This document shows positions 1 through 62,062 of a stretch of 64,000 nt of DNA, piece by piece. Within the stretch, counting starts at the first letter, position 1; each line of letters begins with the position of its first letter. The DNA is taken from NCBI RefSeq assembly GCF_002210425.1, contig NZ_MWQK01000003.1, positions 62,001 through 126,000 of the forward strand. Reading direction: 5' to 3'. The position numbers and the translations under genes are program-made. Source of the stretch: Fibrobacter sp. UWB2. Its GTDB lineage: Bacteria; Fibrobacterota; Fibrobacteria; Fibrobacterales; Fibrobacteraceae. The notes under the pieces were generated by a model that ran no database searches, was not told the DNA's origin, and saw only the letters and a list, made by a program, of their open reading frames with translations.

Positions 1-3000
1 CCATAACTATTATACTGATTGATGTATTCATTAGAGATCAGGTTGCTAATGAATTTGCGGTCATCAAGACTCGCGGTCAAATCAAGGTCCATGAACTTGT
101 GGCTTACGCAACCCAAAATGTCCTTACGGAGTTTGTCCTCGTTTTCCACAATTCCCGGATTCTTTTCAAACAGGTCGTCGGCAGAGTCCTTGATTTCAAT
201 AAGGCTTTTCTGAATTTCGAATTCTTCCTTAGAAAGCAAGGGTCTTTCTTTCTTATCGCTTTGGGCACGCACTTCATTTGCTTCTACAATTCGCTTATGA
301 ATGCGGACAAATTTCTCATCGTCCTTGTAATGGGACTTTAGCGCGCGATTCTTGCGATTGATTTCCTTGATTTTAGACATTACGTCTTTCAGGTAGAAAA
401 TGCTGCCTTCGGCTTCAGTTTTGTCTTTAGGAATATAGCCGTGTTCCCTGAAATACTTTCTGAATTCTTCAATAAGGTTGACAAACTTGTCTTCTTTCTT
501 ATCGAAGTTGGCATCAAATTCGGCACGGACCTTTTCGGCTTCTTCCCTAAGGCTATTAATGATAATCTTGAGTTCTTCTGAAATGCCCTTGCGGAATTCA
601 AAATCCAGACTATCAAGAATCGTATTGATTATGCCCGACACATCTTCGCTATGGTCGTTGCCTTCCTTGAAGTTAATGGCCGCAATGCGGCGTTCTACTT
701 CACGCAACAAAACGGGAATGCCGCCGGGCAGCATGTTCTTATACTTGTCCTGCAGTTCAACGTTCCCGCTAGAACGGATTCTGTTGCCCAGGCCCTTTGC
801 ATCTTCAAGAATTTTACGAAGGTGGTACAGAGGTTCCTTGTCTTCAATTCCATCAATGACTTCGCGGAATTCCTCGTAATTCTCGGTAGGGAAATTCCAC
901 AAGAAATCTGTCAGTTCCTTAATCTGCTGCTTGACTTCTTCGGGATTTTCAATAATCACCTGGCCCGGGTCAGCGGAAAGTTCCAAGCCAGAATCTTCCG
1001 TAGTCTTGTTTAGTTCCCGCAGGTAACGGTCATTGGTGGCATCAAAGTTTTCCTTGATGTCAACAAAGTCCACCACGTAGCCGTATTTGAAATCTTTATA
1101 TGGACGATTGACACGAGTCAGCGCCTGCAACAAATCGTGACCATCGAGTTTGCGACCAAGATACAACTTTTTCAAACGGTTTGCGTCAAAACCCGTAAGC
1201 AACATTTTATTGACAATCAAAAAGTCCGTCGTCATGTTCTTCTTGTAGTCAACAATGTATTCCTTGCGTTCCTTCTTGTCTCCTTCATCATGGAGAATCA
1301 GGGACGCCTTCAACGGTTTTTCAAAGAAAGAAGCGTTGTAATGCATCAGTTTTTCTGCCGCCATGTTTGCGACTTCTTCTTTCTTTTTCTCAATGACACT
1401 TAATGCAAAATTGTAGCGTTCGTTCCACAACTCAAAAAGTTTGCGGGCCTGGTCGTTAGTTTTGCAAACAATCATCGCACCAATAGACTTGTCGTCACAT
1501 TCAACGCGGAAAGAGGTAAAATCATCAATGATATAATCCAGCAAGGCGTTCAAATACTTAGGATGCTCAATGATTTTATCCTTATCGATATCGCTCTTTT
1601 TGACTTGAATCTGGTTTGCCGAATTGTTTTCAAGTTCATCAAGAATCCCCTGCAAAGTTTCTTTGTAGTGGGTTTCAATGGGTTCACGCATCAACTTAAG
1701 CGTGTAACCGTCCGCAATTGACTTGTCGTAATAGTAGGTGTGAATGTAATCGCCAAACACGCGCCAGGATTCACGTTCTTCACGAAGCAGCGGAGTGCCC
1801 GTAAGGGCGAGCTTTATTGCATGTTTGTCGGCACTCAAAAGGTTTGCAAGGAACGCTCCTTCGGGATTGTAGCCTCGGTGAGCCTCGTCAATAAAGAATA
1901 TTCGTTGCAGGTTTGTGTTGTAGCCCGCAGAAATATCTACCGGGGCCTTGTCTTCGGCAAATTTCTGGATATTCACCACGGTGATTTCCAGCCTACCGTC
2001 GGCACTTTTTACCAGCTGCGTATTCTTGATATCTGCCATGAGTTGTGCGCGGTCTTCTACAGTCTGCACAACAAGTCCACGAGCGGCAAACTCGTCGCAC
2101 GCCTGTTCCATCAGGTCAATTCTATCCACGATGAAATAGAACTTGGCGGGAATAGACTTTTTCGCAAAATAGTCAGTAAGACTCTTTACAGAGTAATAGG
2201 CCAAGGCAGTCTTGCCGGAGCCCTGCGTATGCCAGATAATTCCACTCTTTATGCCTTCATCCAGTTTTTTACGGATGGCAAAAGAAGCGAAAAGTTGCTG
2301 GTAACGCATTACATGTTTTTCAAGCGTTTTAATCTTTTCGCCGTCGTCTTTTTCGACAGTCTTTTCTACATAGGCAAAACCATAACGAAGCAGGAACAAG
2401 AAACGTTCCTTGCTCAGCAACGAAGTCAGAATGCGGTTCGTGGGAGTAGTCACCTTGCAATTCGTAGCATACTCCGGATGGCTTTTGAGAGAAAGACAAT
2501 TTCTGTGCTTAAGAATCAGTTTTTCTGTATCTTTCGAAACTTCCCGATACGGATACTTGGGGCCGAACTTTTCGTCTTCTTCGCGGAACACATTGAAAAA
2601 CGCTTTCTGCTTACCAATGCAGGCGTAGAACGCTCCCTGAACAGGAACACGATTCGCATTGTCGTATTCCTGATTATTGCTGAAAATCATCAGCTGGGTA
2701 ATGTTCAAAAAGCGCCTGAAACTTTTATTGGGCAAACGTTTCTGGTTTGTGCGGCATTGCTCTGCAACAATGCCTTCCGCATTATTCGGCTTTTTCACTT
2801 CGATAAAAGCCAATGGCAAACCGTTCACAAAGCATGTAATGTCAGGGCGGAAACTATCACCCGTCTCCTGATTCTCGCAAGGAAGTTCCGTCGTCACAAG
2901 CCAAGTATTGTTCTCCGGATTTTCGAAATCAATCAGCTTGATTCCAGAATTCGAAGAAAGCACCTGGTAAAACTCACGACCAAGATCGTCGCTGCCAAGC

Positions 3001-3224
3001 TTGCTCAACGCAAACTTCGCAAAAATTTGAAGATCATGGAGCTTTTGCTCCGGATTTAAACGAACAAGGGCTTTAAGGAATTCATCAGTAAGCACATTGT
3101 TGTTCTTATCAAGCCTACCTACAGACGTTCCCTCGCCACATTCAGCAAAATAAGTGTAACCCAAACGGCACAAATGAAGGGCCGCAGGAACCTGAACTCT
3201 AGTACATTCGTTAAATCCAGCCAT
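1..3224 (-). CDS. hsdR: Type I restriction endonuclease R subunit (HsdR), C-terminus cut by window edge
   Basis: The minus frame stays open from an ATG at 3224 to position 1 (1,074 codons seen, no stop), so the gene continues off the left edge. Motifs read in order: a PD-(D/E)XK nuclease signature (RPDIT..FIEVKK), helicase motif I HTQGSGKT, an IFFIDEAHRG DEAD-box and a LALTGTP motif. This is the normal order of a motor/nuclease R subunit of the EcoR124/HsdR type. It translocates DNA and cuts it when its cognate S/M complex finds unmodified sites. The gene is divergent from the operon at 3578-5992; no ordinary M or S subunit lies beside it here, though one could lie to the left. The SD before the ATG is weak; an in-frame TTG lies two codons upstream. 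Confidence 0.95.
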   Translation of the reverse strand, partial: MAGFNECTRVQVPAALHLCRLGYTYFAECGEGTSVGRLDKNNNVLTDEFLKALVRLNPEQKLHDLQIFAKFALSKLGSDDLGREFYQVLSSNSGIKLIDFENPENNTWLVTTELPCENQETGDSFRPDITCFVNGLPLAFIEVKKPNNAEGIVAEQCRTNQKRLPNKSFRRFLNITQLMIFSNNQEYDNANRVPVQGAFYACIGKQKAFFNVFREEDEKFGPKYPYREVSKDTEKLILKHRNCLSLKSHPEYATNCKVTTPTNRILTSLLSKERFLFLLRYGFAYVEKTVEKDDGEKIKTLEKHVMRYQQLFASFAIRKKLDEGIKSGIIWHTQGSGKTALAYYSVKSLTDYFAKKSIPAKFYFIVDRIDLMEQACDEFAARGLVVQTVEDRAQLMADIKNTQLVKSADGRLEITVVNIQKFAEDKAPVDISAGYNTNLQRIFFIDEAHRGYNPEGAFLANLLSADKHAIKLALTGTPLLREERESWRVFGDYIHTYYYDKSIADGYTLKLMREPIETHYKETLQGILDELENNSANQIQVKKSDIDKDKIIEHPKYLNALLDYIIDDFTSFRVECDDKSIGAMIVCKTNDQARKLFELWNERYNFALSVIEKKKEEVANMAAEKLMHYNASFFEKPLKASLILHDEGDKKERKEYIVDYKKNMTTDFLIVNKMLLTGFDANRLKKLYLGRKLDGHDLLQALTRVNRPYKDFKYGYVVDFVDIKENFDATNDRYLRELNKTTEDSGLELSADPGQVIIENPEEVKQQIKELTDFLWNFPTENYEEFREVIDGIEDKEPLYHLRKILEDAKGLGNRIRSSGNVELQDKYKNMLPGGIPVLLREVERRIAAINFKEGNDHSEDVSGIINTILDSLDFEFRKGISEELKIIINSLREEAEKVRAEFDANFDKKEDKFVNLIEEFRKYFREHGYIPKDKTEAEGSIFYLKDVMSKIKEINRKNRALKSHYKDDEKFVRIHKRIVEANEVRAQSDKKERPLLSKEEFEIQKSLIEIKDSADDLFEKNPGIVENEDKLRKDILGCVSHKFMDLDLTASLDDRKFISNLISNEYINQYNSY

Positions 3225-3450
3225 AATCAATAGTCACTCAACTCGAAAAAAGGGTCTGACCAAGAGGACAAACCTTATGTTGACAATATACCTTAATAAA
3301 ATGGAGGTTAAATTCAATCTTTCGTGGAATGAAGCGTTTTTAGGAAAAAACTCACTCTGACATCAGTTTTCGGACGTAACAGACGCCAATAAGTAAAATT
3401 ATTTTAACTAAATGCTATTTTTGGCTTAAAAACGGCAAACCATCCGCTAT

Positions 3451-3469
3451 TGTTCAAAATTTTTGAACA
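3451..3469. promoter_or_regulatory. Perfect 9+1+9 palindrome, candidate operator
   Basis: TGTTCAAAATTTTTGAACA is a perfect inverted repeat with a one-base centre, 17 bp upstream of a -35 box. A matching half-site, TTTGAACA, occurs again at 3514-3521 across the end of the -10 box. Full site plus half-site around a promoter suggests binding by a dimeric regulator (inference). Confidence 0.55.
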
Positions 3470-3486
3470 TTTTTATTAAATCACTA

Positions 3487-3515
3487 TTGACTCACGCTTT
3501 TCGATATTGTATATT
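3487..3515 (+). promoter_or_regulatory. Sigma70-type promoter of the 154-aa/half-S/M-like operon
   Basis: TTGACT, 17-bp spacer, TATATT. The predicted leader is about 55 nt before the ATG at 3578. Confidence 0.6.
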
Positions 3516-3577
3516 TGAACATAGAAAATAAATCAAAATTCAAACACAACAACATCAGTAAATCACGAGGCACCGCC

Positions 3578-4042
3578 ATGAAAAACAACATCCTTAAGTT
3601 AGAAATGTTCGAAGCCGTATGCAAGTGCGGCCACGTCGGGAAATCGCATTACGTAATCATCAGTTTTCCCTTGATGGCGCAGTCCAAGAAAGACGCCGCC
3701 AGAATCGCTCGCGGGATGCCGCGCGTAAAGCACGACCACCAAGATGCCATTTTGAACGTTTTCAAGATTGACCAGAAGCGCTACTTTGAACTGCTTGAAA
3801 TCAACGACCGCGACCCCTATCTTCATTGCACCTGCATTCAAGACCAAAACGCAATTGACCTGTCCAGCCGATTAATGGACGAAGACCGTTCAAATCATTA
3901 CACTTCTCGCAAAGAAGAAAACAAAAATTCGTTCTATTGCAACAAGCAAAAAATCCGCAACCAGAAAAAATACATGACTCGTTACTACGACTTTGAGAAA
4001 ATCAGCAACTACAACACCATTGAATACAACGACATTGCATAA
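3578..4042 (+). CDS. Hypothetical Cys/His-rich protein, 154 aa, first gene of the R-M-like operon
   Basis: Not recognised. The start ATG at 3578 follows CGAGG; the frame is open further upstream but without a better signal. Near the N-terminus is CKCGHVG, mid-protein a KHDHQD stretch, then HCTC near residue 90. These could coordinate a metal as a small zinc ribbon. The C-terminal third is basic and polar. Its stop overlaps an in-frame ATG of the next gene (TAATG) and all three plus-strand genes are tightly packed, so it belongs to the HsdS/HsdM-like unit. Possible roles are regulator of the divergent hsdR (see the palindrome upstream) or accessory subunit; both are guesses. Confidence 0.75.
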   Translation: MKNNILKLEMFEAVCKCGHVGKSHYVIISFPLMAQSKKDAARIARGMPRVKHDHQDAILNVFKIDQKRYFELLEINDRDPYLHCTCIQDQNAIDLSSRLMDEDRSNHYTSRKEENKNSFYCNKQKIRNQKKYMTRYYDFEKISNYNTIEYNDIA

Positions 4043-4053
4043 TGGAGACACCC

Positions 4054-4707
4054 ATGACGAAAAAAAGATTAGGCGACATTTCTAAAATTACCGGCGGCCA
4101 AATCACTTCCAGGCTGGAAAAGAAAGAAATCGACGATCTCTTTGAGATTGTACGCGAATCCGACAAGCCAAAGATTACATGCGAAGCTCTTGTTCTTGTA
4201 CCCAGAGCAATTTCGAATGGTTTTGTGGACAAATCTTCTTTGATGAAAATCGTTTGCGAAAAAGAAACCAAGAAAGAACTCGATGCGACGGACTTGACTT
4301 CATTCGTTGACGAAAGCAAAATTACGAAAGCAGACACTTTGGTTTTGAAGTTGTCCACGCCGTACGACGCCTGCGTTATCACGAAAGATGACGAGAACCT
4401 GATTGTCTCATCTTTCTGCGCATCCCTGACGCTTACGGATAAAGACGTCGACTTGCTTTATGTCCTCGCCTTTTTGAATTCAAAATTGTATCAAGACCAA
4501 ATCAAGGACCTCGCAGCAGGTTCCGCAATTCCCTTAATTTCTGTAGGAGCAATCGAAAATGTACAGATTCCTCTTCCGTCTAAAGAGGAACAAGAACAAA
4601 TTGGAAAGGATTTCATAAACACTATGAAAAAAATCAAACTTATTAATAAAGTCATCGCTTTGGAAAGCGAAAAAATGAACTCTATTTTCTACGGAATGGA
4701 GGGATAA
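4054..4707 (+). CDS. Half-size HsdS-like protein (single target-recognition domain), 217 aa
   Basis: The C-terminal half carries the hallmark of type I S-subunit target-recognition domains (AIENVQIPLPSKEEQEQIGKD) followed by a helix (residues about 180-215). There is only one such unit, where ordinary S subunits of about 400 aa have two. Known half-S proteins work as dimers. I chose ATG 4054 because GGAG lies 6 nt upstream; an ATG at 4042 overlapping the previous stop is an alternative. The stop is 4 nt before the HsdM-like gene. It probably supplies DNA specificity to that partner (inference). Confidence 0.8.
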   Translation: MTKKRLGDISKITGGQITSRLEKKEIDDLFEIVRESDKPKITCEALVLVPRAISNGFVDKSSLMKIVCEKETKKELDATDLTSFVDESKITKADTLVLKLSTPYDACVITKDDENLIVSSFCASLTLTDKDVDLLYVLAFLNSKLYQDQIKDLAAGSAIPLISVGAIENVQIPLPSKEEQEQIGKDFINTMKKIKLINKVIALESEKMNSIFYGMEG

Positions 4708-4711
4708 GGCT

Positions 4712-5992
4712 ATGAATAAAAATGAAATTTTTTTGGATGATTTTATAAACTACGCCACATATGCATACGGCGATGACGAACCGTATATTACATACGCAGG
4801 AGCGAAAAAGACTTTAATCGGTTTTCTCTTTCTTTATATAATAAATGAACAGCTTGAGTTTGCGAATTTCAAAAATACAGACGATTACCTGAAGTTACAT
4901 AGTTACTTGAGCAAAATCTTCTCTTCGGGAAATTTCAATGATGATGTTTTGAAAGAAATTTCTAATTTGTTTGAGAAGAATTTTGAACTCCCTTCTGGTA
5001 TTCTCGAAATAGAGTCATTAAAAAATTATTTGCATCACGGGTTGATGATATTTAAAGAGAACCTCAATTTAGGCAACCTGCCTCCGGACATAGACTGTTC
5101 TTCAGTCCTGAAAGATTTAATTTCCCGTCCTCAAACGAGCAGGGACTCCGCCAACACCTATCTTTATTACACAAACGAAAGTCTTCAACAATTAGCAGCA
5201 GGAATCCTGAAAGTCAAGAACAATGAAACATTTATGGATTGTTGTTGCGGAATGTTTTCTTCAGCCCTCTACAACGACGCAGCAAATTACATCGGCGTTG
5301 AATTGGACAAAGAAATTGCCGGCATCGCGGCAATGATCCTGATTATGGCCAAGAAGAAATTTAACATCAAACACGAAAACTTCTTGGATTACAAAGATGA
5401 AAATGTCGCAGACAAGATTCTTGCCGATATTCCCTGCGGCACAGGAACGCCCCAAACGGAGAATCGTCCTTACGGCAAAAATACCGAAGCTTATTGTATT
5501 GAGAACGTTGTCAACGCTCTTAAAGATGGCGGCAAAGCTGTAGTTGTCTGCTTTGGGTCAATTTTGAGCAAACAGGATTCTTCAAAAAAATTGCGCGAGG
5601 CTCTTACGAAGGATCACTTGCAAGCAGTAGTCGCTTTGCCCCCGATGAGCAACGGCACAAAATCCAACACCAATTTGATTGTTCTGCAAAAAAATTGCCA
5701 TGCCAAGGAAATCAAGTTCATCAACGCATCGAATCTTGACATCAAGAACAAGAACAGATTGACTCTTGATGAATCGGACATCTCGGATATCATTGCATGT
5801 CTTAACGGCGAGAACACAAAGTGTTTATTCAAGGACATCCCTGTTGAAGACATTTTGAATTCCGACAGCATTTCCTGGACCCCGAACAACTATGTAAAGG
5901 GAGAAGAGAAAAGCAAGGGACGTTCCATCGAAGAAATTGACAATGACTTGAACGAGTCCTACAAGGAACTTAAAGACTTGTTTCTCGATTAG
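4712..5992 (+). CDS. HsdM-like N6-adenine methyltransferase with degenerate catalytic motif, 426 aa
   Basis: It has an N-terminal helical part, then the N6-MTase core. YYTNES (about 151-156) matches the YYTP element of HsdM. The motif I position reads FMDCCCGMFS (about 174-183) where HsdM usually has DPACGSGGF. The motif IV position reads ADIPCG (about 238-243) where the family has (N/D)PP(F/Y). A later stretch, DGGKAVVVCFGSIL, matches the GGR..IV element. So the fold is recognisable, SAM binding is uncertain and methylation activity is doubtful. GGAGG lies 11-15 nt upstream of the ATG. It is co-transcribed with the half-S gene. Confidence 0.8.
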   Translation: MNKNEIFLDDFINYATYAYGDDEPYITYAGAKKTLIGFLFLYIINEQLEFANFKNTDDYLKLHSYLSKIFSSGNFNDDVLKEISNLFEKNFELPSGILEIESLKNYLHHGLMIFKENLNLGNLPPDIDCSSVLKDLISRPQTSRDSANTYLYYTNESLQQLAAGILKVKNNETFMDCCCGMFSSALYNDAANYIGVELDKEIAGIAAMILIMAKKKFNIKHENFLDYKDENVADKILADIPCGTGTPQTENRPYGKNTEAYCIENVVNALKDGGKAVVVCFGSILSKQDSSKKLREALTKDHLQAVVALPPMSNGTKSNTNLIVLQKNCHAKEIKFINASNLDIKNKNRLTLDESDISDIIACLNGENTKCLFKDIPVEDILNSDSISWTPNNYVKGEEKSKGRSIEEIDNDLNESYKELKDLFLD

Positions 5993-6289: not shown

Positions 6290-7393
6290 ATGAAAAAAGA
6301 TGTTGCGGCTAGTGCCGCTGAGGCCGTTGCGCCGAAAAAGCCTGAATTTTCCCTGATAGATGAGAACCTGCTCAAATCGCGAATATACACCATCCGCGGA
6401 GTAAAGGTCATGCTCGATGCCGATTTGGCGGAAATTTACGGGTATGAAACTCGAAAATTTAATGAACAGGTAAAAAATAATATCGAAAAATTTGATGAAG
6501 ATTTTCGCTTTCAGCTGACTTCAGAAGAATTTGAAAACTTGAAGTCCAAAATTTGGACTTCAAACTGCGGAAATTCGTTGAAATTCGACAATTTTTATAA
6601 AAAAGGAAACTTGATGTCCAAAAATCGGATATCAAGTTGGGGTGGCGTTCGAAAAATGCCATTCGCCTTCACAGAACAAGGCATCTACATGCTTATGACG
6701 GTGCTCAAAGGCGAACAGGCGACAGCACAGAGCAAGGCCCTCATCCGCCTTTTCAAGCAAATGAAGGACTACATTGCGGCAGAGAATGCACCGAATGTTT
6801 CTGCTAGAATGGTTGCATTGGCGACGCAGACAAGTCAAAACACGCGGGATATCGCCGAAATCGCCACGGACGTCCGCACTCTTTCTAACAAGGTGGAGCG
6901 GAACGAGAGTTTTCTCCAAAAAGTCATGGCGAATTTCATCGACCCAAGCACCTTCAAGCACATCCTGATTCTGAACGGGCAGCGGTTAGAAGCCGATGTT
7001 GCCTACACGCAGATTTATGGCATGGCGAAGAAGTCGGTACTGATCGTAGATGACTACCTAAATGTAAAGACTCTTGATTTGTTGCGGTGCGTAGCGAAGG
7101 GCATTTCTATCAAGATTTTCAGCGAACAGCACGGAAGGACCTGCCTGACCGATAGCATGCTAGCAGATTTCAGAGTCGCCCGTCCGGATGTAGAACTTGG
7201 CGATGTTCGCGCCACGGGGAACGTATTCCACGACAGGTATATTTACCTGGATTTCGGAACCGCCAACGAGAAGCTTTTCCACTGCGGGGCTTCAAGCAAG
7301 GATGCCGGCAACAAGATTACGACCATTATGCAACTTGAAAATATCACAGGATACCGCCCACTGTTCGAGAAGTTATTGCAAGATGAAAAATGA
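6290..7393 (+). CDS. ORF6N/KilA-type DNA-binding domain protein, 367 aa
   Basis: Residues about 20-110 (SRIYTIRGVKVMLDADLAEIYG, then NEQVKNN and EDFRFQLT) match the ORF6N domain found in phage antirepressors and chromosomal homologues. A coiled linker follows (about 165-215). The C-terminal region (about 225-367) contains HDRYIYLD, resembling modules in other ORF6N proteins; its role is unknown to me. The ATG at 6290 has AGAGGAG upstream; an open frame before it lacks a signal. It is probably a DNA-binding regulator or mobile-element relic rather than a housekeeping gene. The strong promoter is shared with two places that have no such gene. Confidence 0.8.
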   Translation: MKKDVAASAAEAVAPKKPEFSLIDENLLKSRIYTIRGVKVMLDADLAEIYGYETRKFNEQVKNNIEKFDEDFRFQLTSEEFENLKSKIWTSNCGNSLKFDNFYKKGNLMSKNRISSWGGVRKMPFAFTEQGIYMLMTVLKGEQATAQSKALIRLFKQMKDYIAAENAPNVSARMVALATQTSQNTRDIAEIATDVRTLSNKVERNESFLQKVMANFIDPSTFKHILILNGQRLEADVAYTQIYGMAKKSVLIVDDYLNVKTLDLLRCVAKGISIKIFSEQHGRTCLTDSMLADFRVARPDVELGDVRATGNVFHDRYIYLDFGTANEKLFHCGASSKDAGNKITTIMQLENITGYRPLFEKLLQDEK

Positions 7394-7410
7394 GGTCACT
7401 CATGAGAACA

Positions 7411-7439
7411 AAAAAATCCCAGCCTTTGCGGCCGGGATT
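7411..7439 (-). terminator. Terminator for glucokinase gene (minus strand)
   Basis: Read on the minus strand: AATCCCGGCC / GGCTGGGATT stem with a small loop, then six T. It also lies just after the stop of the convergent ORF6N gene, so it may serve both. Confidence 0.7.
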
Positions 7440-7499
7440 AACAAAGCTCTAAGCCCATCGACTTCGGCGCATTCGCCTCCGTCGCGGTTCCAACAGCGT

Positions 7500-8567
7500 T
7501 TACTTCTGCAAGTTCAAACTTGCATTAGCAGCACCGTACAAACTAATGCTATAATCCTTGATGAGGTACACCGGGATCTTGTTCAAGAGCGGGCGGATAT
7601 TCGGATTGTAGTTCTTTTCGAACCAGGTCATGAACAAGTTATCGCGTTCGAGCCAGCGGAGGTCCTTCTGCACCGTACCACCTGCGAGGTAGAAACCGCC
7701 GAGCGGGAGGAACAACGTGCAAGCGTCGCTAGCGAAGCGGGCAAGCATCTTCACGAACATGCGCATCATTTCGGCAGCGACCGGATCGGTATCACTTGCG
7801 CGGCTGATGTACTTCGGACGGTCATGCCAATCGGTTTCTTCAATCTTCTTGAAGGCATCGTTCTGCGGAACGCCCTTCGTGTCACGCCACCATTCATAGA
7901 GGTGAGCAAGACCCATGCCAGAGACGAGCGGTTCAACGCCCGGCACGGTGCCAATGCGCTTTTCCATGTAGTCGCGGAAGTCCTGGGTTTCCTTGTCGAA
8001 CGGAGCAAACGTAGAGTGACCACCTTCGGAGCAAGCCGGAATGTACTTCTGACCGTCAAATGCGAGGAAGCCAACGCCCATGCCCGTACCCGGACCAATC
8101 ACAGCCTTCGTGGCAGCCTGCGGCTTCGGTTCGCTACCGTCGGTGTGCTTGAACTTGAGAATCTGCTTCGGGTCATCGACGTCGAGAGTCGGGATGCCAT
8201 AGCTAATGGCCATAAAGTCGTTAATCACGAGGGTCGGGATGCCGGTTGCATTCGTGATGGCATCGCCGTCAACGCACCACGGGAGGTTCGTCATGACGCA
8301 CTTGTTGTTAGCAACGGGGCCTGCAGCACTGATGCAAATGTGGGACGGCTTCAAATCCGCGCGGTTTTCGATGGCAGCCTTGAGCGTTTCACGGATCGGG
8401 GTGTCAAGTCCTTCAATGCACTGGCTCGGGCAAACGGTTTCGAGAATGAGTGTAAACTTGCCATCCTTGTAGCCCACAAGACCAAGATTCGTATTCGTAC
8501 CACCGATATCACCCGCCAAAACGAGACGGTCAAACTTTGCATCGGGATTAAGCCATTTAATTTCCAT
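7500..8567 (-). CDS. glk: Glucokinase (Glk family), 355 aa
   Basis: ATP-dependent glucose 6-phosphorylation at the entry of glycolysis, cytoplasmic. The N-terminal phosphate loop reads LAGDIGGTNTNLGLVGY; LVINDFMAISYGI holds the catalytic Asp of the family; AVIGPGTGMGVGFL is the adenosine/phosphate segment; CSEGGHSTFAP holds the conserved sugar-binding Glu/His. The C-terminal GGFYLAGG matches the family's second ATP-binding element. Length is slightly above the E. coli type (about 320). The start ATG has GGAG 10-13 nt upstream. Single gene with its own terminator. Confidence 0.93.
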   Translation of the reverse strand: MEIKWLNPDAKFDRLVLAGDIGGTNTNLGLVGYKDGKFTLILETVCPSQCIEGLDTPIRETLKAAIENRADLKPSHICISAAGPVANNKCVMTNLPWCVDGDAITNATGIPTLVINDFMAISYGIPTLDVDDPKQILKFKHTDGSEPKPQAATKAVIGPGTGMGVGFLAFDGQKYIPACSEGGHSTFAPFDKETQDFRDYMEKRIGTVPGVEPLVSGMGLAHLYEWWRDTKGVPQNDAFKKIEETDWHDRPKYISRASDTDPVAAEMMRMFVKMLARFASDACTLFLPLGGFYLAGGTVQKDLRWLERDNLFMTWFEKNYNPNIRPLLNKIPVYLIKDYSISLYGAANASLNLQK

Positions 8568-8620
8568 AATTTAAAACTCCATGTTTTACGTTCAGGAATA
8601 TAGTTTTTTCTCAAGGAAAT

Positions 8621-8650
8621 AGGAGATTCCCGATTAAATCGGGAATGACA
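8621..8650. repeat. Palindromic dispersed repeat (GGAGATTCCCG..CGGGAATGACA)
   Basis: GGAGATTCCCGATT / AATCGGGAATGACA inverted repeat between the divergent glk and acyltransferase genes. It is one of many copies in this window. Confidence 0.8.
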
Positions 8651-8773
8651 AGTGCGTATTTATGCGTATGTAACAAAAACAACCGATTTACTCCGCTCAA
8701 AAAATATACATTAAGCCCATAGGGACCTATTTATATTGAGTGGGTCATAATTCACTTTTAACAAGCAGAGACC

Positions 8774-9532
8774 ATGCGCGCTATTCTTGCACTCTTTTAT
8801 TACATCGTCGTTTTCACTATCATGGTTGTTGCGGGTATCCCCTACACCCTCTATTGCGGTATCCGCGGGCACTGGGAAAACTGCACCAAGATTTGCACTT
8901 TCGCCTTCAGGAACATTATTTTCAAGCTTTTCGGCATTAAAGTCGCGGTCAAGGGGGCAGAAAACATTCCAAAGGGCGTAAACTACGTCATCGTCGCCAA
9001 CCACCAGAGCTTTTTGGACATCAACGTCGTCTGGCATTCCATCACGTCGGCGTCATTCATGGCGAAGGCAAGCCTCTGGAAAGCGCCCGTATTCGGCTGG
9101 GTCCTGAACCGCTCCGGCAACATTCCTATCCACACGAACCCGCGCAAAAACGCAGGCCTCGGCAAAATCCTCAAGAAACGCCTCGAAAGCAATTACAACA
9201 TTGTCGTGTTCCCCGAAGGCCACCGCAGCGAAGACGGGCACATGTTCAAGTTCCAAAATGGAATTTTCCGTTTGGCAAAAGAACAGCACTTTGACATTTT
9301 GCCAGTTACATTTATCAATACCGGAAAGATTCTCCCAAAGGTCAAATGGGCAGTCTATTCCGGCACCGTCGAGATGGTCGTTCACCCGCTAATCCGTTAT
9401 GAAGATTACGCCGACAAGCCGATGGCCGATCTCCGCGACGAAACCCACGATTTAATTGAATCCGCTATGCCGTACAAGCAGGCGGAACTTGCCGCAGCAA
9501 AAGAAGCGGCAACAGAAAACAAGGAGGCTTAA
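8774..9532 (+). CDS. plsC: 1-acyl-sn-glycerol-3-phosphate acyltransferase (PlsC family), 252 aa
   Basis: Transfers the second acyl chain to lysophosphatidate in phospholipid synthesis at the inner membrane. An N-terminal hydrophobic segment (about 4-25) anchors it. The HX4D motif is NHQSFLD (about 76-82), followed by a GNIPI acceptor-binding element and FPEGHRS (family FPEGTRS). The Ala/Glu-rich C-terminus is unremarkable. The stop codon is 2 nt before the RNase R start and the RNase R SD lies inside this gene's end, so the two are co-transcribed. Confidence 0.92.
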   Translation: MRAILALFYYIVVFTIMVVAGIPYTLYCGIRGHWENCTKICTFAFRNIIFKLFGIKVAVKGAENIPKGVNYVIVANHQSFLDINVVWHSITSASFMAKASLWKAPVFGWVLNRSGNIPIHTNPRKNAGLGKILKKRLESNYNIVVFPEGHRSEDGHMFKFQNGIFRLAKEQHFDILPVTFINTGKILPKVKWAVYSGTVEMVVHPLIRYEDYADKPMADLRDETHDLIESAMPYKQAELAAAKEAATENKEA

Positions 9533-9534
9533 TT

Positions 9535-11979
9535 ATGGCTAAGGAATTACCGAGCGAAGAACAAATTATTGCAATCCTTCGTGACGAACCTATGGTAGGG
9601 AGCCAGCTCCGTAGCGCTCTCGGCCTCCCCAAAAAACAGAAGATGGCTTTTAAGCAACTCCTCGCCGACATGATCGAGCGTGGCGTTCTCAAGCGTTCTG
9701 CCCACAAGGAATATCAATTGGGCGATGGCGAACCGCTCGAAGACAAGCGCGAGAAGCGCCGCAAGAAGCTTGCAGAGCAGGGCGTCGAAGACAACCGCCG
9801 TCCGGGCGCTCGCAGCCGCCGTCAGACCGAAAAGGATTCCGGCACACGCGTGAAGCGCGGCATTCTGCACCAGACCGGTGACGAAGACTGGCAGGTGACC
9901 GAAATCGATACCGGCAAGGTGTACGAGATGTGCCACCGCAGACAGGCGCCGGGCAAGGAAGGTGAGACCATCAGCTTCACGCTTTATCCGCACCCGAAGC
10001 TCAAGCATAGCTACTTGGCCAAAGTCGACCGCTCCGCCGAAATCATGAACGTGACTTGGGACGAAGTCAAGAAGAAGTTCATGGAAGAGAGCAACTTGCC
10101 CAAGGGCTTTAGCCCCGCCATTGAAAAGTACGTGGCCTCCATTACGGACCCGACCGAAAAGGATTTCAAGGGCCGCGTGGATTATCGCAAGCTCGACATT
10201 CTTTGCATTGACCCCGAAGGCGCCATGGACCACGACGATGCTATCAGCGTGGAACGCAAGCCGAATGGTGGTTACAAGCTCGGCGTGCACATCGCCGACG
10301 TGAGCTACTACGTGCCTGAAGGATCTGACCTCGATGAAGAAGCTCTTGAAAGAAGTTATACGCAATACCTGCCGTGGACGGCAGTGCCGATGCTCCCGGA
10401 AAAGCTTTCGAGCGGCGTTTGCAGCTTGCACGAAGGCGTAGACCGTTGCGCATTCACCTGCATGATTGACTTGGACAAGGAAGCAAACGTTCTCGGTTGG
10501 GATTTCCACCGCAGTGTCGTGAACATCACGAAGGGAATCACGTACCAGCAGGCCGTAAAGATGATGGAAGACGGCGACGATTCCATCAAGGCTCTCGCCG
10601 AAGTGACCGCACTTCTCAAGAGGAACCGCACCAAGGATGGCTTGCTCGAATTCCAGACAACCGAATACGGCTGCAAGTTTGACGAGAACGGTGAACCGGT
10701 CAAGATTTTCCCGCGCGAACACGACGATTCCAATTCTTGGGTCGAAGAGTGCATGCTCATCGCGAACAATTGCTGCGCGAAGGAACTCAAGCAGCGCAAG
10801 CTGCAAGGCATTTACCGTATCCATGAAGCTCCGGACACGAAGGACATCATGGAACTCTATTACATGTACCCGGACCTGTTCAAGGACGCTCCGGTGATGT
10901 TGCGTGATTTGGGCAAGCCGCGCAGTGGCGATACAAACTTGAACCCGGTAGCCTTCAAGCTTTACGAACACTTGGTCAAGCGCGCTGCTGGCGACGAGAC
11001 GCTCACGAACCGCATTTTGCGCAGCATGCAGAAGGCTCATTACGACTCCAACAGCTTCGGGCACTTTGCCTTGAACTGGCAAGATTACAGCCACTTCACT
11101 TCGCCGATCCGCCGTTACGCGGACCTCTGGTGCCATCGCGAACTCGCCCGCAAGGGTAAGGAAATCGATGCCGAACGCGTGAACAGCGTGATTGAAGTCT
11201 GCGACTTGATTTCTGCAAACGAAATCAAGAACATGAAGGTGGAGCGCATCTCCATCAAGGTGTGCAGCTGCTGGATTTTGAAGAGCCGCATTGGCGACAG
11301 CTTCGAAGCAAGCGTTACTGGCATCGAAGAATGGGGCATCTACGTTTCCATCGACGATCCGATTGCCGAAGGTCTTGTGCGCTACCGCGATATCGCAGGC
11401 GACGACTTCTATGTGTTCAACCCGGATCAGGGTCTTGCATTTGGCAAGCGTAGCGGCCGCACCTTCCGCCGTGGCGACAAGGTGATGGTTCAACTCCTCA
11501 GAGTTGACCCATTGCGCGGTCAGGCAGACTTCAGCATCACCGAAAAGCTGAGCCCTGAACCGAAGAAGCGCCGTACCCGCGAAGATACCGAACGCGACAT
11601 TCGCAATTTCAATGAAAGAGCTGACCGCGCTGCGGCCGCCGAAGCACTCGGCTATGTGAGCCAGCCGGACGAAGACGACGATTACGAACCGGAATACGTT
11701 TCTCGCGGTCGCCGTGGACGTCGCGATTTCGACGGTCCGATTTTCGAACGCACCGGTCGCGATTCTCGTGAACGTGGCGGTTTCCGCAAGGGCCGTGACG
11801 AATTCGATGAAGGTCGCCGTTCCGACAAGCGTGGGAAACACGGTTCTGAAAAGCGCGGAACCCGCGATTTCGGCGAAGGATTCCATGTAGCCAGCGAACC
11901 GCGTGAAGCAAGACGTGGCCGCAGATCTAGCGAAAAAGGTCGCGGACGCAGCAGCCGCGGAGGCCGCAGAGGAAGATAG
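9535..11979 (+). CDS. rnr: Ribonuclease R, 814 aa
   Basis: Processive 3'-5' exoribonuclease that degrades structured RNA. An N-terminal winged-helix-like part (about 10-60), a basic stretch, cold-shock/OB regions, then the RNB catalytic core with Asp cluster DPEGAMDHDDAIS (about 226-238). Also seen: HIADVSYYV, the FTSPIRRYADL element and an S1 domain (about 575-665). The C-terminal tail of about 120 residues is rich in Arg, Gly, Asp and Glu (RGRRGRRDFDG-like), typical of RNA-contacting tails but long. Start ATG 9535 has GGAGG upstream. Confidence 0.95.
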   Translation: MAKELPSEEQIIAILRDEPMVGSQLRSALGLPKKQKMAFKQLLADMIERGVLKRSAHKEYQLGDGEPLEDKREKRRKKLAEQGVEDNRRPGARSRRQTEKDSGTRVKRGILHQTGDEDWQVTEIDTGKVYEMCHRRQAPGKEGETISFTLYPHPKLKHSYLAKVDRSAEIMNVTWDEVKKKFMEESNLPKGFSPAIEKYVASITDPTEKDFKGRVDYRKLDILCIDPEGAMDHDDAISVERKPNGGYKLGVHIADVSYYVPEGSDLDEEALERSYTQYLPWTAVPMLPEKLSSGVCSLHEGVDRCAFTCMIDLDKEANVLGWDFHRSVVNITKGITYQQAVKMMEDGDDSIKALAEVTALLKRNRTKDGLLEFQTTEYGCKFDENGEPVKIFPREHDDSNSWVEECMLIANNCCAKELKQRKLQGIYRIHEAPDTKDIMELYYMYPDLFKDAPVMLRDLGKPRSGDTNLNPVAFKLYEHLVKRAAGDETLTNRILRSMQKAHYDSNSFGHFALNWQDYSHFTSPIRRYADLWCHRELARKGKEIDAERVNSVIEVCDLISANEIKNMKVERISIKVCSCWILKSRIGDSFEASVTGIEEWGIYVSIDDPIAEGLVRYRDIAGDDFYVFNPDQGLAFGKRSGRTFRRGDKVMVQLLRVDPLRGQADFSITEKLSPEPKKRRTREDTERDIRNFNERADRAAAAEALGYVSQPDEDDDYEPEYVSRGRRGRRDFDGPIFERTGRDSRERGGFRKGRDEFDEGRRSDKRGKHGSEKRGTRDFGEGFHVASEPREARRGRRSSEKGRGRSSRGGRRGR

Positions 11980-11982
11980 TTG

Positions 11983-12909
11983 ATGGACGCATGCAATAAA
12001 GTCGCCCTCTACGCCAGTTACCAAACCGGGGAAGACCTCCCCGGCTATGTCCGCTTTGCGCTCAAGCATCTCGCTGAGACCGACTTCAAGGTCGTCCTCC
12101 TCACGAATCGCCGAACGCTTTCGAGCGACACCTACGATTTTCTGAAGGAAAATCACATCGAGCTTTTCCTCACCGAAAATCGCGGATTTGACTTTGGCAT
12201 GTGGCGGCGTTATTTGCAACTGCAGGCGAACCGAACAGACGCAGCCGGCAACTACGTTCCCGGCGTCATCACGCGCGATGTGGAACGCTTGTTGCTCATC
12301 AACGATTCCATCGTCTATTACCAAAACAAATTCAAAGAATTCTTTGAACGTGCCGAAAAAAGCAATGCAGACGTCGTCTCACTCACAAGCAATGACGAAT
12401 TTGCGCCGCATCTGCAATCGTTCTTCTTGTACATGAAACCCGCCGCACTAGGCGTGTTCTTCTTGCACATTTTCGAGACTCCCGAACAGACCGAATTCTA
12501 CGATGTCACCCGCAAGCTCGAAGTCGGCTTGAGCGAAAAATTCACCGAAGCCGAAGTCATCATGGAATCGCTCTACCACACGGAACGCCCCGTGTTCTTC
12601 GCATACGACGAGCTCATCCAACAAGGCGCTGGTTTCGTGAAGCGCAAGCTCTTGGAACGCCGTTTCAACTACGAAGAAAAGAAGCACTTCGTACGCCATC
12701 ACGCCTACGACGCCCTCAACAAGGACTACACCGCACTCATTCTAGAAGCCGGGCTAGATGCAGACTTTGACGAGAGTTGGCTCCCGAAAAGCAACGAGAC
12801 CCGCGCAGAGCGCATCAAGGACTTTATCTGGGAAAAAGGATTCCAGCTCGTCGGCTTCCCCGCTAAACGCCTACTCGATAAAATCAAGAAAGGTGATTCC
12901 CGATCATAG
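11983..12909 (+). CDS. Rhamnan synthesis protein F (RgpF)-like glycosyltransferase-associated protein, 308 aa
   Basis: The pattern VALYASYQT..LPGYVRFAL..L.TNRR..ENRGFDFGMWRRYL..LLINDSIVYY matches the RgpF family, which acts in polymer side-chain assembly of rhamnose-containing cell-surface polysaccharides. ENRGFDFG and NDS are family signatures. Start ATG 11983 has GAGGAAG upstream; a TTG at 11980 is less likely. It begins 3 nt after rnr, so it is probably in the same transcript. The C-terminal residues GDSRS and the stop are supplied by a palindromic repeat (12892-12921). Acceptor and sugar cannot be deduced. Confidence 0.75.
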   Translation: MDACNKVALYASYQTGEDLPGYVRFALKHLAETDFKVVLLTNRRTLSSDTYDFLKENHIELFLTENRGFDFGMWRRYLQLQANRTDAAGNYVPGVITRDVERLLLINDSIVYYQNKFKEFFERAEKSNADVVSLTSNDEFAPHLQSFFLYMKPAALGVFFLHIFETPEQTEFYDVTRKLEVGLSEKFTEAEVIMESLYHTERPVFFAYDELIQQGAGFVKRKLLERRFNYEEKKHFVRHHAYDALNKDYTALILEAGLDADFDESWLPKSNETRAERIKDFIWEKGFQLVGFPAKRLLDKIKKGDSRS

Positions 12910-12921
12910 TCGGGAATGACA
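12892..12921. repeat. Palindromic repeat overlapping the end of the RgpF-like gene
   Basis: GGTGATTCCCGATCAT / AGTCGGGAATGACA. The stop TAG at 12907-12909 lies in its loop, so the last four to five codons are repeat-derived. Confidence 0.8.
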
Positions 12922-12928
12922 ATTAGCC

Positions 12929-13678
12929 TTAAAACGGCAAGTCGAATTCTTCCTCTTGAGCGCGTTTTAGCTGATTGCGCAGTTCAGTCGCGAACTTGCG
13001 CGGAACAGGCCTCGAAGGCGGAAGTACGTTCACGGAAAGTTCATCAGAAACACAATAATTTACGGCTCCATTTTCCGACACAGAGTAAGTGACGACCTTA
13101 TAGGAATCGCCCATGCTCAATTCGTTCAAGGCCGCAGCCGATCCATCCTTAGAATTACGAAGTTGCTCACGGACTTTTTCGATCTGCTCTGCAGTAGACG
13201 GCGTATTCCACACAATCGCAAGCTGAGCGTAATCATTCCGCGGAATCTCTACAATGTCGCCTTGCTTAAAACGAATCGTCTTGGGATCACGACCTTTATA
13301 AGGCTCTTTATTGCAGACCCTCAACTGTCTCGGGAGATTACTCGGTCCTTCACTTTTTAGCCACAAAGAGCCATCTTCGAGGTAACGCCAGCACGAAACA
13401 TAGTCGGTAGAATGCATCATAGAACCTATCGGCAATTCCGTCACAAAAAAGCCATAGGCATCATTTGATTTTTTCTTGACAATTTTACGAATACACTTTT
13501 CGGCATCCGCCAAAGACTGATAGTACCCCACCTCACTTTCCATCAAATGGAAACAAGGGCAGACAGAGGGGCGAATCGCAAGCTCATCCTTATCGATACT
13601 AAAACTCTCTTTTTTGCTAAACATATAGCGAAAAACACGTAAAACGAACAGATTTGTATTGTTTTCGAACTGTTGCAT
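12929..13678 (-). CDS. Hypothetical protein, 249 aa
   Basis: Not recognised. No signal peptide or membrane segment. The N-terminal quarter is basic and aromatic (LFVLRVFRYMFSKKE). The middle has a SCWRYLEDGSLW element and then KQGDIVEIPRNDYAQLAIV, which reads like a small beta-barrel or SH3-like fold. The C-terminus, ATELRNQLKRAQEEEFDLPF, is charged. ATG 13678 was chosen because GAGGTG lies 5-6 nt upstream; GTG 13687 would start inside the SD. Single gene, divergent from the lipoprotein at 13790. Confidence 0.7.
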   Translation of the reverse strand: MQQFENNTNLFVLRVFRYMFSKKESFSIDKDELAIRPSVCPCFHLMESEVGYYQSLADAEKCIRKIVKKKSNDAYGFFVTELPIGSMMHSTDYVSCWRYLEDGSLWLKSEGPSNLPRQLRVCNKEPYKGRDPKTIRFKQGDIVEIPRNDYAQLAIVWNTPSTAEQIEKVREQLRNSKDGSAAALNELSMGDSYKVVTYSVSENGAVNYCVSDELSVNVLPPSRPVPRKFATELRNQLKRAQEEEFDLPF

Positions 13679-61969: not shown

Positions 61970-62062
61970 TTAGTTACTTTTGTATGTGATACCCGCCGTC
62001 TGCAAATACAACACATCACTATCTTTCAGCATCTGCTTGAATTCTTGTGAAATCACTCGCAT
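61970..62062 (-). CDS. Possible 30-aa peptide ORF
   Basis: Strong SD (TTGGAGGT) before ATG; begins MRVISQEFKQMLKDSDVLYL. No known family; could be the retained 5' end of a lost gene. Confidence 0.35.
   Translation of the reverse strand: MRVISQEFKQMLKDSDVLYLQTAGITYKSN

Follow-up and report, generated by a model that had tools for sequence, protein, structure and literature searches.

RptR is a repressor encoded directly upstream of a type I restriction-modification (R-M) system, where it binds direct repeats at the promoter (PMC12255303). Among type II systems, C proteins and the autoregulatory M.SsoII provide R-M-encoded control of R-M transcription, the regulator being a separate C protein or an N-terminal region of the methyltransferase. 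PacII, a non-canonical type I enzyme of the form M1M2S, has two different M subunits, both reported to be catalytic (m6A and m4C) (PMC9613975). We analysed a window of 64,000 nucleotides from Fibrobacter sp. UWB2, family Fibrobacteraceae (the whole stretch of DNA studied, contig positions 62,001 to 126,000), at whose left edge a sequence-only reading had noticed a divergent operon for a 154-residue Cys-rich protein, a one-TRD HsdS and an HsdM-like protein; the ORFs and domains of this trio are as it described (Table 1). We call the last two proteins half-S and pM, and the window's locus L009.

The pair resembles the HsdM and HsdS subunits of type I R-M systems in its N6_Mtase and Methylase_S domains and its gene adjacency, and the HsdM proteins of EcoR124I and Bacteroides are the best sequence and fold matches. 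In contrast to those subunits, half-S has one TRD rather than two, this TRD is conserved rather than variable, the catalytic motifs of pM are degenerate, and the gene order is half-S, then M. pM recalls PacII as a second, different M subunit for which PacII M is a high-ranking fold match, but both PacII M subunits are reported to be catalytic (PMC9613975). RptR, too, is encoded immediately before type I R-M genes and has direct repeats at the promoter; it is, however, a small HTH-like dimer (PMC12255303), whereas the candidate regulators in our loci are a half-S and an HsdM that is presumably dead. The C proteins and M.SsoII differ both in system type and in the nature of the regulator. The MADS profiles mad2 and mad5 match 13 of 13 pMs scanned and 11 of 11 half-S proteins, respectively, but fall a long way short of the NCBIfam cut-offs (13.6 of 720 bits and 40.3 of 400 bits), and mad2 fits the ordinary HsdM next to hsdR better than it fits pM; with neither MAD2 nor MAD5 above its curated cut-off, we rejected MADS membership. 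We found no description of a controller pair of half-S and dead HsdM in the literature searched, which omits most subscription journals.

Table 1. Features of the Fibrobacter locus, in window positions unless L009 numbering is indicated, and promoter repeats of related loci.
Feature	Position	Strand	Remarks
hsdR (type I motor/nuclease)	1..3224	-	HSDR_N, SWI2/SNF2, ResIII domains
hsdR, L009 numbering	9994-13224		one operon with hsdM and hsdS
hsdM, L009 numbering	8341-9993		same operon
hsdS, L009 numbering	7071-8312		same operon
Operator-like repeat R1	3462..3483	+	TTTGAACATTTTTATTAAATCA; conserved in five Fibrobacteraceae loci
Predicted sigma-70-like trio promoter	3487..3515	+	TTGACT-17 bp-TATATT; -10 overlaps first bases of R2
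Operator-like repeat R2	3514..3535	+	TTTGAACATAGAAAATAAATCA; 52 bp from R1
154-aa Cys-containing protein	3578..4042	+	unannotated widespread family, KCGHVG...RVKHDHKDAI
half-S (one-TRD HsdS-like, 221 aa)	4042..4707	+	one Methylase_S domain
pM (HsdM-fold, 426 aa)	4712..5992	+	N6_Mtase E 5.6e-21; degenerate motif I DCCCGMF, motif IV DIPC
L035 repeat			GTACCAAAAAAATATGACA
L043 repeat			ATGNACAT..AACATTTCAA
L098 repeat			AAATGT..ACATTAC
L099 repeat			AGGTTAT..AACCT
L100/L101 repeat			GAACAT..AAAAATATATCAA
L103 repeat			GAACATNAAATACTTGAC
L104 repeat			ACACGTATAANACTTGAC

The nuclease and helicase domains of HsdR were found as the sequence-only reading had reported, but its proposal that HsdR stands opposite nothing more than a half-S and a ruined methyltransferase fails. 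That reading had itself named a complete hsdM and hsdS to the left of the window as the observation that would count against it, and this is what lies there: just outside the window's left edge, sharing both strand and operon with hsdR, are an hsdM (550 aa, DPSAGTG and NPPF intact) and an hsdS (413 aa, two TRDs). The hsdR gene starts near 3224 and its 3' end is one codon beyond the window's edge. An orphan hsdR is ruled out; the three genes are a type I R-M system with HsdR nuclease and motor, intact HsdM and two-TRD HsdS. The supposition that the host needs unusual protection goes with it, hsdR having its own intact M and S alongside and the trio also occurring without hsdR (L015, L017 and L018). 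Downstream of hsdS lies a gene for a 1502-aa protein (L009 2546-7054) with no Pfam match at 1e-5 and, read by eye, an apparently HNH-like N terminus, adjoined by an unannotated 387-aa ORF; both are possible further defence genes.

Motifs I and IV of pM read DCCCGMFS and ADIPCG, as previously noted, within a protein that matches the N6_Mtase fold but departs from the DPxxG and [ND]PP[FYW] consensus. Four other Fibrobacteraceae loci keep both variants (motif IV ADIPC/S), which rules out sequencing errors. In an alignment of 14 pMs none had motifs X, I and IV all canonical, and ten had lost the motif-IV aromatic, with C or S, I, or L in its place (DIPC, DIPS, DGPI, DFPL, EPPI, APPI, APQL), versus NPP[FY] in all 12 canonical HsdMs aligned. 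The four with an aromatic read NPPF (L098), NYPF (L099) and DIPF (L100/L101). Motif I keeps its D (once E) and G, and its proline is gone in every pM except that of L035, which retains the motif. Comparison with canonical EFYTN led us to drop the idea that motif X is lost in all pMs, as the Fibrobacter proteins keep YYTN. These retained motifs may leave room for SAM binding or residual activity in the pMs that carry them (L035, L098-L101 and those of Fibrobacter). A tree separates the 14 pMs from 19 canonical HsdMs with support of 99/99; the pM branches are long, and long-branch attraction may have helped this single split. The structure model of pM has the HsdM fold (pLDDT 83), with 2okc as best PDB match (E 2.8e-16) and the M subunits of PacII and EcoR124I also among the closest, and identity to the neighbouring HsdM is about 28% over 159 aa.

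Half-S, the Cys gene and the C-terminal domain of pM have dN/dS of about 0.05-0.18 among the Fibrobacteraceae loci and are therefore under purifying selection. Judged from their sequences, the pMs appear to be a pseudoenzyme family, with degenerate catalytic motifs in a protein that is constrained and recurs across phyla. The earlier suggestion of an M-like protein that reads but does not write is to this extent supported and extended; its companion idea of a stand-alone defence module is not, since the promoter architecture described below points to regulation instead. The N-terminal domain of pM (residues 1-145) varies between loci: between L015 and L018, dS is no more than 0.03-0.04 for the Cys gene and the C-domain of pM, yet these residues are 41% identical, and the pMs of L009 and L016 are 34% identical in the N-terminal versus 94% in the C-terminal domain. 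This domain has been replaced by recombination between near-identical Fibrobacteraceae loci, which suggests a second, variable interaction.

The half-S is short of the two TRDs of a complete HsdS, with a single Methylase_S match, and its TRD is conserved across phyla. We rejected a silent or phase-variable hsdS cassette because half-S is only 28% identical, over 89 aa, to the TRDs of the neighbouring hsdS and stays constant while hsdS varies. The third family, that of the Cys protein, gave no significant match in a fold search and no Pfam or PHROG match worth noting. Its members also stand beside genes resembling the anaerobic ribonucleotide reductase (RNR) activase and reductase, including in phage NatCom_17901 (L027), as well as beside kinase/vWA/phosphatase-like triads and further operons, in taxa that include Bacillota and Treponema (L030-L080). 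In another Fibrobacter, a broken remnant of it (L028 8913-9398) adjoins a defence-like locus with a PLD-helicase and an N6-methyltransferase.

The trio is present in five Fibrobacteraceae loci, the window and four other genomes, always in the order Cys protein, half-S, pM. Its recurrence beside hsdR holds for one further locus, L016, where the adjoining hsdR and hsdM are 98-99% identical to those of the window (two of five loci in all), but not for L015, L017 and L018, which have no R-M genes alongside. Searching GTDB genomes with the Cys protein found the trio in an Acholeplasmatales MAG (L035) and an Erysipelothrix-labelled MAG (L043), and a half-S profile brought up pM pairs that lack the Cys gene, both in a search of the order Erysipelotrichales (L098 and L099, the latter with pM and half-S fused into one protein) and in Lachnospiraceae (L100-L104). 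Only half-S and pM are common to all pM loci; the Cys gene is accessory. In L035 and L098-L102 the next gene after the pair, with the same orientation, is a canonical hsdM; hsdS comes after it, and hsdR too in some of these loci, whereas L103 and L104, like the three Fibrobacteraceae loci above, lack hsdMSR alongside; genomes G365, G725 and G756 gave no HSDR_N match. Some of the pairs without adjacent R-M genes have defence-like genes of other kinds next to them, an OLD-like/UvrD pair for example. No useful close relative of pM or half-S came from searching viral contigs, phages and plasmids (tblastn of the Lachnospiraceae pMs against plasmids listed general HsdMs only), and 247 Bacteroidales genomes gave no half-S match in a search that had no positive control there. 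In a second, widespread class of loci (class b: L094-L097, L112-L118), which served as internal control, a related half-S precedes an ordinary HsdM with canonical motifs where aligned, usually with HsdS and HsdR. After hsdS and hsdR there usually follows a small gene resembling a YgjP-type metalloprotease.

Two copies of TTTGAACAT-N6-TAAATCA, 52 bp apart, flank the predicted promoter of the Fibrobacter trio. A single promoter-like site in this stretch is by itself not above chance, but the block of repeats and promoter is conserved in all five Fibrobacteraceae loci even though the sequences flanking it in L015 and L018 show no relationship. Across 80 genomes of the genus, the trio is the sole place where the motif (at most one mismatch) is present in two copies (G000, G029, G033 and G063); G037, G052, G083 and G088 have a single one-mismatch match each, at the level of a reversed control pattern, which also gave scattered single matches. 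A perfect palindrome, TGTTCAAAA-T-TTTTGAACA (3451-3469), was discarded as a conserved element, being absent from L015 and L018.

Outside Fibrobacteraceae the repeats differ in sequence but keep the arrangement: two repeats embrace a predicted promoter in nine of ten pM lineages, other phyla included. An upstream direct-repeat score of at least 15 was reached by eight of ten independent pM loci, compared with two of 38 other upstream regions in the same loci (Fisher 5e-6) and none of the 11 class b loci (2e-4), which lack promoter repeats. Of 12 loci examined, four of them from Fibrobacteraceae, 10 have their best promoter within 250 bp between the two repeats or overlapping them; L015 and L018 each have a better match elsewhere than the promoter that the repeats enclose. 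A convincing intergenic repeat is missing from L102, and those of L099 are short palindromes not above shuffles. Half-S proteins that are 86-98% identical share the motif, as do those of L100 and L101 at 66%; at 58% (L103/L104) part of it is shared, and at 37% or less the motifs differ. HsdS is 39% identical between L009 and L016, yet both have the same motif. The putative operator sequence thus appears to track the relatedness of half-S rather than that of the adjacent system's HsdS. Sharing of GAACAT between phyla is only weakly above chance (250 of 5000 shuffles).

The half-S/pM operon carries at its own promoter the operator-like repeats looked for in an autoregulator. We think it somewhat better than an even bet that half-S and pM form a DNA-binding complex, derived from a type I enzyme and no longer catalytic, which regulates its own operon and, where they are linked to it, R-M genes. 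The two proteins would bind each other, and the complex would bind the two repeats around the promoter, repressing the operon and controlling its own level; where hsdM, hsdS and hsdR follow in the operon or adjoin it in divergent orientation, they would be controlled too. The variable N-terminal domain of pM would receive a signal or a partner. Binding of the repeats by half-S and pM is the simplest account, since these are the only common genes and the operator follows half-S, not HsdS.

Other readings place the pair's action elsewhere. pM and half-S might join or compete with the neighbouring type I enzyme, replacing its M or S, tuning methylation or restriction, or serving as decoys that draw off phage anti-restriction proteins; the presence of hsdMSR in the operon in several loci, the HsdM fold of pM and the swapping of its N-terminal domain between near-identical loci, as in an arms race, all fit. 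We nevertheless consider such a role unlikely, because three of the five Fibrobacteraceae loci and L103/L104 have no adjacent hsdMSR, three genomes lack an HSDR_N match, pM is so distant from the neighbouring HsdM, and the promoter repeats are left unexplained. Alternatively, pM could be an active methyltransferase with unusual motifs, directed by half-S. The D-I-P-x of motif IV is reminiscent of N-I-P-Y in rRNA adenine dimethylases, there is a weak match to the RsmA/KsgA profile (E 0.009), and to the invariant D and G of motif I in the aligned pMs can be added the four proteins with a motif-IV aromatic. Loss of the stacking aromatic in the other ten and a motif IV that varies freely between relatives, unlike any active family known to us, make this reading quite improbable.

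A stand-alone defence module, in which the trio senses DNA or its methylation and acts through a further effector, would suit the five loci without R-M genes alongside, some of them next to other defence-like genes, and the recurrence of the Cys-protein family beside unrelated systems. It has little probability in our estimate: a domain search found no effector domain in any of the three proteins, and the Cys protein is absent from L098, L099 and the Lachnospiraceae pM loci. Much the same low standing goes to an unlinked regulator that binds the repeats while the pair does something else; any host repressor could read the operators, and in L103 a gene that looks HTH-like by eye lies directly upstream of half-S, but none was seen next to the trio in L015, L017 and L018, and the repeats change between lineages with half-S in a constant architecture. 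That the pair is a decaying remnant of an R-M system is scarcely credible: degenerate catalytic motifs would be expected, but not purifying selection, cross-phylum recurrence and a conserved promoter, and on dN/dS and recurrence we rejected decay for the pM family.

An extension of the preferred reading, autoregulation by a dead half-S/pM complex, is a long shot: the dead methyltransferase might be a phage-responsive repressor, half-S and pM silencing the restriction operon through the twin operators until an anti-restriction protein of the Ocr/ArdA type captured the interchangeable N-terminal domain of pM or the DNA-binding cleft, turning restriction on. If so, the phage's own countermeasure would switch restriction on. 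A controller assembled from components of the R-M enzyme itself and stripped of catalysis would stand to type I systems roughly as dead Cas9 does to Cas9.

Smaller elements also occur near these promoters. The divergent hsdR/trio intergenic region of the window holds an imperfect inverted repeat (3335-3434; 16 nt, 81%). Imperfect dyads are visible within the repeats: TTGA-N14/15-TCAA in R2 of L009, L100 and L101, AATGT-N4-ACATT in L098 and AGGTT-N6-AACCT in L099; this reading of a few sequences might fit binding by a homodimer of one-TRD subunits. The L100 and L101 leaders contain, between promoter and second repeat, a hairpin (GGCACnGGTACCGTGCC) followed by a T-rich run, an attenuator-like arrangement.
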